Shown one piece after another: positions 27,879 to 52,085 of a stretch of 64,000 bases of DNA. A program made the position numbers and the translations under genes. Source of the DNA: Dictyoglomus sp. NZ13-RE01 (lineage in GTDB: Bacteria; Dictyoglomota; Dictyoglomia; Dictyoglomales; Dictyoglomaceae); contig NIRF01000001.1 in assembly GCA_002878375.1 (NCBI GenBank), positions 372,001-436,000 on the forward strand, written 5' to 3'. The notes below the pieces were generated by a model. The model was not told the DNA's origin. It searched no databases and was given only the letters and a program-made list of their open reading frames with translations. Numbering within the stretch: position 1 is the stretch's first letter; every line of letters begins with the position of its first letter.

Positions 27879-28958
27879 ATGAATAAGTTGATACTAAATT
27901 TATCAGGAAAAGAGCTAAAACTTCCAAATTTTTTGCCCGATGCCACATATGGTGTTGTCAAATCCTTGGACACAAAGGACCTAAAACAGGTTGGGGTTCA
28001 TGGATTAGTAGTTAATACATTCCACTTAATAAATAAGCCTGGTATTTCGGTTATTGACTCTTTAAACGGTATCAAGAATTTTATGAACTGGGATGGGATA
28101 ATTCTTTCTGATTCTGGAGGATTTCAAATCTTCTCTGTTTTAAGAGAAAATCCAAAATTTGGAAGTATAAATGAGGATGAGATAATCCTGAAAAACAATG
28201 AAAAAATCATTATTACTCCAGAAAAGATTATTAATGCCCAATTTAAATTGAAATCAGATATTATGATGGCTTTAGATTACTGTACTCATCCTGATGATTC
28301 TTATGAGATAAATAAATTATCAGTAAAACTAACAATTGATTGGGGAAAAAGAAGCAAAAAAGAGTATGAAAAACTTATTAAATCAAAGGAAAATTACAAG
28401 CCTCTAATATTTGGTATAATTCAAGGAGGAAAAGATAAAAATCTTAGAAAGGAATGTGCAGAAGCCTTAATGGAAATAGGTTTTGATGGGTTTGGTTTTG
28501 GAGGTTATCCTATTGATAGTAAGGGAAATTTGATAGAGGATATACTTCAATATACGGCGGAGCTAATTCCCGACAATTTGCCCAAATATGCTATGGGGAT
28601 TGGAAAACCGGAAAATATAGTTACCTGTGCTCAAATGGGATATAATCTATTTGATTGTGTTATCCCTACAAGAGAAGGAAGAAAGGGAAAGCTATATATT
28701 TATAATGATAAGATGGAAAAAGTAGATATCTTTTCAAAGGATTTTTACTCCAATATTTTTATATTAGATGGAAAATATGTAAGAGACAAAAAGCCTATAT
28801 CAGAGTTTTGTGATTGCTTATTATGTCAAAATTATAGCAGAGCATATTTACATCATCTTTTTAAATTAGAGGATCCCTTAGCTTATAGATTAGCATCTAT
28901 TCACAATCTAAGATTCTATATGCAATTAATAGATTTAATATGGAAGAAGATATCATAA
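27879..28958 (+). CDS. tgt: tRNA-guanine transglycosylase
   Basis: 359 residues from the ATG at 27879; an earlier in-frame start lies inside the preceding terminator and is rejected. The enzyme swaps guanine-34 of GUN-anticodon tRNAs for the queuosine precursor. Seen: D78 in DSGGFQIFS, the nucleophile D259 in LFDCVIPTREGRKGK, and the zinc ligands C311, C313, C316 and H342 (the spacing of 26 from third cysteine to histidine matches the bacterial enzyme). There is no Shine-Dalgarno and the leader is very short. It starts the operon tgt, Arm-type methyltransferase, rsmI, plsX, pilT, overlapping the second gene by 19 nt. Confidence 0.93.
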   Translation: MNKLILNLSGKELKLPNFLPDATYGVVKSLDTKDLKQVGVHGLVVNTFHLINKPGISVIDSLNGIKNFMNWDGIILSDSGGFQIFSVLRENPKFGSINEDEIILKNNEKIIITPEKIINAQFKLKSDIMMALDYCTHPDDSYEINKLSVKLTIDWGKRSKKEYEKLIKSKENYKPLIFGIIQGGKDKNLRKECAEALMEIGFDGFGFGGYPIDSKGNLIEDILQYTAELIPDNLPKYAMGIGKPENIVTCAQMGYNLFDCVIPTREGRKGKLYIYNDKMEKVDIFSKDFYSNIFILDGKYVRDKKPISEFCDCLLCQNYSRAYLHHLFKLEDPLAYRLASIHNLRFYMQLIDLIWKKIS

Positions 28959-29728
28959 GAGAAATTCTTAGTAGTAAGAAATATAAAGATATAGAGATTG
29001 AATTTTTGAGAAATATTTATAATATCGAGAAAAGTAAGTACAATAATGAAAAACTTATTATAAAATCTGTAAAAAGAAAATTACATCAAGTTTATGGTTC
29101 ATTCCTAAATCCCAAAATCTTTGATAGGTTGAAAGTATATTTAGAAGAATTGACCCAAGATAATTTAATAGATACATGTAAGAATATATTAAGTCTCCAT
29201 ACATCCACTAAGGAGAGAATAGATTTCTATCCATATATTTATGAGCAGATCTTCTCAAATATACCAAAACCTAAATCCATCTTAGATGTTGCATGTGGAT
29301 TAAACCCTTTTTCTATTCCCTTTATGAATATAGAAAGAAAAATTCATTATTTTGCATTAGACATAAACTCATCTCTTATAGAACTAATAAATAATTTTCT
29401 ATTAAAATTAGGTTTACAACCAAAGGCAAAAGTTTATGATGTAATGTATCATCCAATAGATATTCAGGTAGATTTAGCCTTTATATTCAAATTTATTCCA
29501 GTCTTAGATAAACTAAGAAAGGATTATATGTTAGAATTTATAAGAAATATTCCATCTTATTATATAGTTGTTTCTTTTCCATTAAAAAGTTTAACTGGAA
29601 AAACAAAAGGAATGGAAGAACATTACAATGAAAAATATATATCTAAATTAAGAAATAATTTTTTATTTATTCATGAATTTTCTATTTCAAACGAAAAATT
29701 TATAATTATAAAAAAAGAAGATGGGTAA
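28940..29728 (+). CDS. Arm-type 16S rRNA (guanine-1405-N7) methyltransferase homologue
   Basis: 262 residues, matching the aminoglycoside-resistance methyltransferases RmtB/ArmA/Sgm along the whole chain. Family blocks seen: SSKKYKDI near 11-18 in the helical N-terminal domain, SLHTSTKER at 85-93, the SAM-binding DVACGLNPF at 116-124, the second SAM loop ALDI near 139-142, LAFIFKFIPVLD at 179-190, and SFPLKSLTGKTKGMEEHY at 212-229. RmtB carries nearly the same words (SLHASTKER, DIACGLNPL, SFPTRSLGGRGKGME). The family methylates N7 of G1405 in the 30S decoding centre. It overlaps tgt by 19 nt and rsmI by 8 nt, both nucleic-acid modification genes, so a housekeeping or protective role is plausible. 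Confidence 0.85.
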   Translation: MEEDIIREILSSKKYKDIEIEFLRNIYNIEKSKYNNEKLIIKSVKRKLHQVYGSFLNPKIFDRLKVYLEELTQDNLIDTCKNILSLHTSTKERIDFYPYIYEQIFSNIPKPKSILDVACGLNPFSIPFMNIERKIHYFALDINSSLIELINNFLLKLGLQPKAKVYDVMYHPIDIQVDLAFIFKFIPVLDKLRKDYMLEFIRNIPSYYIVVSFPLKSLTGKTKGMEEHYNEKYISKLRNNFLFIHEFSISNEKFIIIKKEDG

Positions 29729-30593
29729 GTTATACGTAATTGCAACTCCTATAGGAAATTTAAAAGATATTACCTTCAGAGCATTAGAGACTATTGAAGA
29801 GTGTGATATCTTAGCTGTAGAAGATACAAGACACACTCTTAAGCTTCTGAATCATTACAATATCAAGAAAAAGATGATCTCGTACCATAAATATAATGAG
29901 AAGGAAAGAGTAAATCTAATATTAGACCTTTTAAAAAACAAAAACTTGAATGTGGGACTGCTAACTAACGCAGGTACTCCATGCATATCGGATCCTGGAT
30001 ACATAATAGTCAAATGTGCAAGAGAAAATGGAATAGAAGTGGTACCTATTCCTGGTCCTTCTGCAATAACTACCGCCTTATCTATTTCTGGACTTCCATC
30101 TAATCAATTTTTATTTTATGGTTTTTTACCGAACAAGAAAACTGAAAGAGAAAAAATATTAACGAAAATAAAAAACACAAAGGTAGAAACTATAATTTTT
30201 TTTGAATCGCCAAAAAGAATTACTAACTTAATGAATTTATTAAAAGATTTTTTCCCTAAATCTACAGTATGCGTTTGCAATGAGTTAACAAAAATGTTTG
30301 AAAAGGTATACTATGGAAACATTGATAAGGTAGTAGAAGAAATAGAAAATAACCCTCATAAAGAAATGGGAGAATACACAGTGATTATTTATTACAATCC
30401 AGAAGAAGAGCCCTCTAAATTAAATCTAAGTGTCGAAGCCTTAATAATTAATGAGTTAGTTACTAATAATCTGAGTCTTAAAGAAGCAATTAATTTGGTA
30501 TCTAAGAAGTATGGAATATCTAAAAAAGAAGTATATAATAAGGCTATAAATCTTAGAAATAAAATTTTAAACAATGGAGGAGGAAATCTATGA
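29721..30593 (+). CDS. rsmI: 16S rRNA 2'-O-ribose C1402 methyltransferase
   Basis: 290 residues of the tetrapyrrole-methylase fold. Seen: YVIATPIGNLKDITFRALE at the start, VEDTRHTLKLL, NAGTPCISDPGY and VPIPGPSAITTALSISGL, followed by a C-terminal domain found in RsmI. It adds a 2'-O-methyl group to C1402 in helix 44 of 16S rRNA, three bases from the G1405 target of the enzyme encoded immediately upstream. Start overlaps the end of that gene; stop overlaps the plsX start (ATGA). Confidence 0.95.
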   Translation: MGKLYVIATPIGNLKDITFRALETIEECDILAVEDTRHTLKLLNHYNIKKKMISYHKYNEKERVNLILDLLKNKNLNVGLLTNAGTPCISDPGYIIVKCARENGIEVVPIPGPSAITTALSISGLPSNQFLFYGFLPNKKTEREKILTKIKNTKVETIIFFESPKRITNLMNLLKDFFPKSTVCVCNELTKMFEKVYYGNIDKVVEEIENNPHKEMGEYTVIIYYNPEEEPSKLNLSVEALIINELVTNNLSLKEAINLVSKKYGISKKEVYNKAINLRNKILNNGGGNL

Positions 30594-31597
30594 CAATTGC
30601 ACTGGATGCTATGGGAGGAGATTTTGCTCCTCAAGAAACAGTAAAGGGAGCAATTGAGTTTGTTAAGGAATTTCATGAAAAAGTTATTCTTGTAGGTAAA
30701 GAGGATCTACTAAAAAGAGAGTTAAGTAACTATAGCTATCCAGAAGAATTAATTGAAATCTATCACGCATCTCAGGTAATAGAAATGGGAGAACATCCAG
30801 CTTTTGCAGTTAAAGAAAAAGAAGACTCGTCCATAGTTGTTTGTATGAAACTTCATAAAGAGAATAAGGTTTCCGCCGTTGTATCTGCAGGAAATACTGG
30901 AGCTGTAATGAGTAGTGCCCTACTTATCTTAGGAAGAATCCCTGGAATTAAAAGACCTGCTATAGCTACTTTAATACCTACCCTTAGTGAAAAACCTTCC
31001 ATTCTTTTGGATGTTGGAGCTAATGTCGATTGTAAGAAAGAATACTTAGAACAATTTGCCCTAATGGGGAGAATATATTTAGAAGAGATTTTCAATGTTA
31101 AAAATCCAAGAATCGGATTATTAAATATTGGAGAAGAGGAAGGGAAAGGAAATCAGTTGGCACAGGAGACCTATGAACTTCTAAAGAATAACAAATATTT
31201 CAATTTTGTTGGAAATATAGAAGGAAAAGACCTTTTTAGCTCTATTGCGGATGTTATTGTATGCGATGGATTTGTAGGAAACATTGCTGTAAAAACAGCG
31301 GAGGGTGTAGCGGAAACTCTCTTTACCCTCCTGACAAAAGAACTAACATCAAGTTTGTGGAGTAAAATATTAGCAGGCTTACTAAAACAAAAGTTTAGGA
31401 ATGTTAAGAAAAAGTTAGATTATAGTGAATATGGTGGTGCTCCTCTTTTAGGAATAAATGGCGTTGTTATAATATCCCATGGAAGATCAAAGGCAAAGGC
31501 TATAAAAAACGCCCTAAAGGTATCTTTACAAGTTGTAAAACAAAAAGTTAATGATAAAATAAAGGAAGGTGTTCTTGAAATATCTGGGGGAGGTTAA
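30590..31597 (+). CDS. plsX: Phosphate acyltransferase PlsX
   Basis: 335 residues beginning with DAMGGDFAPQE, followed by SAGNTGAVMSSAL, ATLIPT, LLDVGANVDCK and VCDGFVGNIAVKTAEG, all hallmarks of PlsX. It converts acyl-ACP to acyl-phosphate at the membrane, feeding PlsY in phospholipid synthesis. The ATG overlaps the rsmI stop (ATGA) with GGAGGAGG upstream. Usually plsX sits with fabH or rpmF; here it lies between rsmI and pilT. Confidence 0.95.
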   Translation: MTIALDAMGGDFAPQETVKGAIEFVKEFHEKVILVGKEDLLKRELSNYSYPEELIEIYHASQVIEMGEHPAFAVKEKEDSSIVVCMKLHKENKVSAVVSAGNTGAVMSSALLILGRIPGIKRPAIATLIPTLSEKPSILLDVGANVDCKKEYLEQFALMGRIYLEEIFNVKNPRIGLLNIGEEEGKGNQLAQETYELLKNNKYFNFVGNIEGKDLFSSIADVIVCDGFVGNIAVKTAEGVAETLFTLLTKELTSSLWSKILAGLLKQKFRNVKKKLDYSEYGGAPLLGINGVVIISHGRSKAKAIKNALKVSLQVVKQKVNDKIKEGVLEISGGG

Positions 31598-43049: not shown

Positions 43050-43139
43050 GCCGAAGTGGCGGAATTGGCAGACGCGCCAGACTCAAAATCTGGTGAGTGG
43101 GTGACACTCGTGCGGGTTCGACTCCCGCCTTCGGCACCA
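43050..43139 (+). tRNA. tRNA-Leu(CAA)
   Basis: 90 nt with 3' CCA encoded. Acceptor stem GCCGAAG/CTTCGGC, anticodon stem CCAGA/TCTGG around loop CTCAAAA (anticodon CAA), a long variable arm and T arm GCGGGTTCGACTCCCGC. The class II fold and anticodon agree on leucine, reading UUG. Confidence 0.97.
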
Positions 43140-51921: not shown

Positions 51922-51997
51922 TGGTCGGGGCGACTGGACTTGAACCAGCGACCTCCTACTCCCGAAGCAGGCGCGCTAGCCACTGCGCTACGCCCCG
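51922..51997 (-). tRNA. tRNA-Pro(CGG)
   Basis: 76 nt with 3' CCA encoded. Acceptor stem CGGGGCG/CGCCCCG with the C1-G72 pair typical of proline tRNAs; anticodon stem CCTGC/GTAGG and loop TTCGGGA give anticodon CGG. T arm TCGCTGGTTCAAGTCCAGTCG-like in the expected position. Twelve bases downstream of the second tRNA-Pro. Confidence 0.95.
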
Positions 51998-52009: not shown

Positions 52010-52085
52010 TGGTCGGGGCGACTGGACTCGAACCAGCGACCTTCCGCACCCCAAACGGACGCGCTAACCCCTGCGCTACGCCCCG
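52010..52085 (-). tRNA. tRNA-Pro(GGG)
   Basis: 76 nt with 3' CCA encoded. It shares the acceptor stem and most of the D and T arms with the neighbouring tRNA-Pro(CGG). The anticodon loop TTGGGGT gives anticodon GGG. The two genes most likely arose by tandem duplication and divergence of the anticodon arm. Confidence 0.95.

Follow-up and report, generated by a model that had tools for sequence, protein, structure and literature searches.

What is a gene for an aminoglycoside-resistance type of ribosomal RNA (rRNA) methyltransferase doing in the chromosome of Dictyoglomus, a bacterium of hot-spring type? Acquired 16S rRNA methyltransferases make bacteria almost completely resistant to aminoglycosides, and it is among antibiotic producers that their source has usually been sought. 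We analysed a stretch of 64,000 nucleotides from Dictyoglomus sp. NZ13-RE01 (contig NIRF01000001.1, positions 372,001 to 436,000; hereafter the window) that holds such a gene, here called rmt. It adds a member to a known family, and together with a paralogue of the gene for transfer RNA (tRNA)-guanine transglycosylase (TGT), here called tgtP, it forms a conserved two-gene cassette that has rsmI, and often rsmH, as a neighbour in Clostridia, Chloroflexota, the genus of the window and other phyla.

The rmt open reading frame (ORF) is intact over 262 codons, with no frameshift and no internal stop. The product matches the Pfam family FmrO (PF07091) with 119.5 bits over its full length (residues 12–255 against positions 2–253 of the 255 in the profile; the gathering cut-off is 27 bits) and the generic Rmt model of NCBIfam (NF000466) over the entire model length with 233.7 bits (E = 2e-69). 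The closest PDB sequences are Sgm (1.4e-33), RmtC (1e-29) and RmtB (3e-27), with RmtF also among the nearest. An AlphaFold model of the protein has a predicted local distance difference test (pLDDT) value of 91.8, and the first 16 PDB matches found for it with Foldseek are all Sgm, RmtC, RmtF, RmtB or ArmA, with template-modelling (TM) scores of up to 0.87 (query length). The predicted fold, an N-terminal 30S-binding helical region followed by a Rossmann methyltransferase domain, matches Rmt, Arm and Sgm over the full length. In an alignment with 14 other Rmts, including RmtB2, RmtC, RmtD1, RmtE2, RmtF1, RmtG and ArmA, all 14 columns that are invariant across the 15 sequences are retained in rmt (L48, H49, H87, S89, E92, R93, N122, D141, K184, P214, G220, M225, Y229 and E252). 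An initial annotation made from the letters alone had claimed whole-length agreement with the Rmt/Arm family and had named a profile search as the check that might overturn it. Pfam, NCBIfam, the PDB sequences and the predicted fold all concur with that claim, the PF07091 score places rmt inside the FmrO/Rmt family and the motifs cited there (SLHTSTKER, DVACGLNP and FIFKFIPVLD) are present. Codon use, said to be like that of the neighbours, proved to be not quite so: rmt has a GC content of 23.4% (17% at third codon positions, GC3), lower than every neighbour measured, against 30–38% (GC3 22–27%) for most of them. The 16S modification site gave no match in the assembly of the window genome; it is intact in Dictyobacter.

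The cassette and the other features of the window are as follows.

27879–28958, plus strand: tgtP, TGT paralogue of 359 residues (PF01702, 320 bits), the second TGT of the genome

28940–29728, plus strand: rmt, FmrO/Rmt-type 16S rRNA (G1405-N7) methyltransferase of 262 residues (by Pfam, NCBIfam, PDB and fold)

29721–30593, plus strand: rsmI, 16S rRNA C1402 2'-O-methyltransferase (TIGR00096, 256.8 bits; cut-off 167.9)

30590–31597, plus strand: plsX-like ORF (by sequence), next in the operon (ORF overlap; synteny in loci L005 and L007)

43050–43136, plus strand; 51925–51997, minus strand; 52013–52085, minus strand: three tRNA genes, the sole Rfam matches in the window

The overlaps are 19 nucleotides between tgtP and rmt and 8 nucleotides between rmt and rsmI. 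The canonical tgt lies elsewhere in the genome (C1:286190-287248) and clusters in the tree with the single TGTs of related species; tgtP is an additional copy. The tgtP-rmt-rsmI block recurs in a second species of the genus (G002), a third (G001) has rsmI without tgtP and without rmt, and rsmI alone is present in the two complete genomes from the sister genus (G003 and G004). Because these relatives keep rsmI without the other two genes, tgtP-rmt is an accessory cassette beside a housekeeping gene, and a purely housekeeping operon is ruled out; the plsX-like ORF also stands 3' of rsmI in the species without the cassette and so marks the insertion context. Contamination is ruled out as well, since the cassette adjoins rsmI on a 478-kb contig and recurs in G002. 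Among the window ORFs that were read (20–40.9 kb) no resistance genes, mobile elements or aminoglycoside gene cluster were noticed. The initial annotation had placed rmt in an operon with tgt and rsmI and had suggested that it may be a native rRNA-modifying enzyme. This holds for rsmI, and a native rRNA-modifying role agrees with the chromosomal position, the translation-modification operon and the ORFs read, which gave no hint of a mobile element. The gene taken for housekeeping tgt is the paralogue tgtP, and rmt cannot count as housekeeping in this lineage, being missing from one of the three species of the genus and from both sister-genus genomes.

A scan of genome contigs with a single window protein as query gave no matches; a profile search of the species collection with tgtP returned at least 516 relatives. 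Among the best 80 loci, which were examined, rmt is present in 68, rsmI in 47 and rsmH in 20; tgtP precedes rmt in 63 of the 68 paired loci, the two genes nearly always abut or overlap, and the orders rsmI-tgtP-rmt and tgtP-rmt-rsmI recur in distant phyla. Among the carriers are Clostridia, Anaerolineae, Ktedonobacteria, Armatimonadota, Acidobacteriota, Aminicenantes, Hydrogenedentes and one WWE3 genome. Counted from the side of rmt, the gene occurs in ∼77 of 400 Chloroflexota genomes (E < 1e-30), where tgtP is adjacent in 28 of the best 30 rmt loci, is represented by an end 1.2 kb upstream in one and is absent from one, and in seven of 398 Bacillota genomes, in all seven of which tgtP adjoins it. 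The linkage counts from the two sides rule out a chance neighbourhood. The WWE3 genome (∼0.6 Mb; L095:4920-7182) has tgtP and rmt with no other TGT and is a minimal carrier of the pair. Two rmt genes stand in tandem behind tgtP in several Anaerolineae and other Chloroflexota (L097, L101, L115, L119, L125, L126, L180 and L182); the second copies of the Chloroflexota tandems form a separate clade and perhaps have another target nucleotide.

The two genes are also co-inherited. Over 78 pairs the tree distances of tgtP and rmt correlate with r = 0.81, a value reached by none of 2000 permutations. As mirror-tree similarity could stem from a common species history, the canonical TGT of the same genomes was taken as a control; over 25 genomes r is 0.85 for tgtP and rmt and 0.50 for canonical TGT and rmt, with a partial correlation of 0.80. 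The window gene groups first with that of G002 and then with L047, G055 and G328, in the tgtP tree as in the rmt tree. TgtP forms a clade apart from canonical TGT; it passes the model of the canonical tRNA-G34 enzyme (TIGR00430; 323.2 bits, equivalog cut-off 306.75), but despite this it is the other TGT of the genome that is the orthologue of the single TGT of the lineage. In the rmt tree RmtB, C, D, E, F and G, ArmA, the Clostridial operon genes and the window rmt fall into one clade of 42 rows, with a Shimodaira–Hasegawa-like approximate likelihood-ratio test (SH-aLRT) value of 97, although the placement of ArmA and RmtC depends on long branches. A tree of the kind that the initial annotation had suggested, here with RmtB–G, ArmA, Sgm and environmental homologues, thus puts rmt in the clade that holds the clinical enzymes. 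Sgm groups with Chloroflexota, away from the window and clinical genes, and a clade of the clinical enzymes with Sgm was rejected.

A second pairing of the same kind was found in three genomes, G072, G390 and G393 (loci L240, L238 and L239), which have an additional TGT of the archaeosine type (TIGR00432, 192 bits in G072). In each of the three the very next gene encodes a divergent FmrO-type methyltransferase (Pfam, 55.7 bits in G072). That two distant TGT lineages are tied to one methyltransferase family argues for a biochemical link, beyond the sharing of an operon alone. G390 and G393 hold both types of pair.

The fold of TgtP matches that of Zymomonas mobilis TGT, and TgtP shares the catalytic aspartates and the zinc site with the canonical queuosine enzyme of bacteria: D102, S103, D156, Q203, G230, D280, R286, R289 and the zinc ligands (Z. 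mobilis numbering) are kept. Apart from forming its own clade and being a second genome copy, it differs from that enzyme in the base pocket, where the 84 tgtP rows of the alignment show V45D in 81, L231W in 80 (W, Y or F in all 84), A232P in 84 and G234D in 74; E235 is left in only four. In the Z. mobilis enzyme the peptide between residues 231 and 232 flips according to whether guanine or 7-aminomethyl-7-deazaguanine (preQ1) is bound, aided by E235, and its NH group contacts N7 of guanine through a water molecule (PMC3660597). This Leu231-Ala232/Glu235 switch for alternating binding of the two bases is not found in TgtP, and a proline at 232 is unable to give the peptide NH; with its nucleophile, general acid/base and zinc site preserved, TgtP is thus probably an active transglycosylase with a base preference unlike that of canonical TGT. 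Its associations make 16S helix 44 and tRNA the foremost candidates for its RNA target. In Patescibacteria and relatives (L081, L086, L108, L116, L120 and L121) the only TGTs have GGWP or GARHID instead of GGLAVG, and in L086 queA lies directly behind a TGT of this type. We looked for a link of the pair to de novo preQ1 synthesis and rejected it: a convincing QueC is present in just 13 of 46 genomes, the window genome not among them, and there is no dependence. As canonical TGT also occurs without QueC, these data are uninformative on the base used by TgtP; the lack of QueC in the window genome and most carriers suggests that the inserted base, if any, would be salvaged or be no queuosine precursor.

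The pair is also found around clinical resistance genes. A plasmid search with the window tgtP gave 16 records at 48–57% identity, against 30–38% for ordinary tgt. In the six that were inspected tgtP lies beside rmtD1, rmtB2 (with one gene between), rmtG (two records) and rmtE2 (two records, tgtP truncated). Around rmtG, rsmH is intact and rsmI is present as its first ∼80 residues, immediately beyond which stands an ISVsa3 transposase gene, and on the rmtD1 plasmid the final piece of rsmH precedes tgtP; inspected copies of armA, rmtB1, rmtC, rmtE1 and rmtF1 have no adjoining tgtP. On an Enterobacter plasmid (NZ_MH325468, L039) the tgtP-rmtG unit stands in tandem copies. Uncultured Clostridia of gut and rumen have tgtPs with 70–82% identity to the plasmid ones and Rmts with 41–57% identity to RmtB, D, E, F and G. 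At least four clinical genes, rmtB2, rmtD1, rmtE2 and rmtG, appear to have been lifted from a tgtP-rmt pair. The clinical Rmts nest among the Clostridial operon genes and not with Sgm, the one producer sequence sampled; the suggestion in the initial annotation that the window rmt is close to the origin of the resistance genes has to give way to these nearer relatives.

The clinical enzymes and ArmA have the family, full-length alignment, fold and all invariant residues in common with rmt, and several have tgtP beside them on plasmids; in contrast, the window gene is chromosomal, stands in a native operon with intact rsmI and is 23–31% identical to them. The producer enzymes (Sgm and the FmrO family) resemble it in that Sgm is its best PDB sequence match and the FmrO profile is passed, but no aminoglycoside gene cluster accompanies rmt in the ORFs read and Sgm falls in the Chloroflexota part of the tree. 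A tRNA ribosyltransferase upstream of rmtG was reported in 2014 (PMC3904158). The rsmH-tgt-rmtG-rsmI operon of Klebsiella plasmids (Passarelli-Araujo 2019), as cited in a 2022 review under 'rRNA and tRNA modification' genes (PMC9311965), has the gene set and order seen here; there it is described as the context of one resistance gene, whereas here the cassette is chromosomal in many phyla. In the open-licence literature that we searched, we found no account of tgtP and rmt as partners on the chromosomes of many phyla, nor of Clostridia as the origin of the clinical genes.

We consider it likely that rmt is the methyltransferase half of tgtP-rmt, with Rmt methylating the cell's own G1405, TgtP exchanging a base and the clinical genes being captured copies. 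Judged from family, fold and invariant residues, Rmt would methylate N7 of G1405 in the 16S rRNA of the cell itself. The target would then lie among the same few nucleotides of helix 44 as C1402, the site of RsmI and RsmH, three nucleotides off. Rmt enzymes are active in Escherichia coli and ArmA is reported to interfere with RsmI (PMC12406665); given this interference and the nearness of the two sites, co-expression of rmt with rsmI or rsmH makes sense. With less certainty, TgtP may exchange a base in the decoding region or in tRNA, with a specificity other than that of canonical TGT. Aminoglycoside resistance would then be a by-product of an rRNA modification that is native to the cell. Four observations weigh against this explanation. 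The NF000466 score of rmt lies below the equivalog cut-off of 250 bits (its relatives L047 and L077 score 252.1, above the cut-off, and 239 bits). One genome, G263, has rmt without any tgtP, so the partner is not indispensable; this lone rmt (L241:6210-7013) is downstream of a small rpsT-like ORF, and the only TGT of the genome is canonical. Some Patescibacteria have a TGT similar to TgtP but no rmt, in one case with queA next to it, and as these enzymes share part of the TgtP pocket, A232P included, the pocket is not to be over-read. The rmt tree holds a single producer sequence.

What TgtP acts on is where the readings part. It may act on tRNA, at another position or with another base, while Rmt acts on 16S rRNA, the operon being common because both tune decoding and not because of a shared target nucleotide; this is a real possibility, if somewhat short of an even chance. 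The fold and active site match tRNA-TGT, the related TGT of Patescibacteria is their sole one, and the rmtG operon is known for both rRNA and tRNA modification genes (PMC9311965); but canonical TGT is already present in all checked carriers except Patescibacteria and the single-TGT drafts G328 and G404, and the remaining constant neighbours, RsmI and RsmH, share a 16S rRNA target, C1402. Only tentatively, and as rather less than probable, do we suggest that TgtP is an rRNA transglycosylase that replaces a guanine in the decoding site of 16S rRNA by another base; this guanine might be G1405 itself, either ahead of its N7 methylation by Rmt or afterwards. We know of no base-exchange modification of ribosomal RNA so far, and TgtP would be the first. 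A bolder variant, which we think distinctly unlikely, has TgtP remove N7-methylated G1405 (m7G1405) and put in guanine or another base, as the eraser to a writer or in a methylation-primed base swap. A232P and the loss of E235 take away the backbone NH that contacts guanine N7 through water (PMC3660597), the aromatic residue and new aspartate in the pocket might suit a cationic base, and the pairing with FmrO recurs in a second TGT lineage. However, the pocket residues fit preQ1, likewise a cation, equally well, and the clinical Rmts leave stable m7G1405 without TgtP; as the Patescibacterial TGTs without rmt have the same pocket and share the proline, the argument from A232P for m7G as leaving group is kept for this alternative only.

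Two further alternatives concern Rmt. A reading of the cassette as a defence acquired against aminoglycosides in the environment, with TgtP as passenger or accessory, would suit its patchy occurrence in the genus and family, its tree position beside unrelated phyla, the lower GC content of rmt and the high-level resistance given by the Rmt family in E. coli. We hold it unlikely: a passenger would not have been preserved intact across many phyla, with every catalytic residue in place, the place beside rsmI and rsmH is fixed, and the ORFs read hold no accompanying resistance genes or mobile elements that we noticed. A drift of the window Rmt to a target other than G1405 seems very unlikely, although identity to the proven enzymes is ∼30% and the score is slightly below the equivalog cut-off, as all 14 invariant columns are retained and the fold match is full-length, including the N-terminal helical region.

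The data thus point to uncultured Clostridia of gut and rumen, and to the tgtP-rmt operons on their chromosomes, as the source of acquired 16S methyltransferases. If TgtP is indeed an rRNA transglycosylase, what reached the clinic as Rmt genes would be the methyltransferase half, split off from a system of this kind. The cultured carriers (Dictyobacter, Bellilinea, Thermogemmatispora and Anaerobacterium) make the native modification directly measurable, and the data pose a new question: what is it that, in two separate lineages of TGT, links a base-exchanging enzyme with a methyltransferase of G1405?
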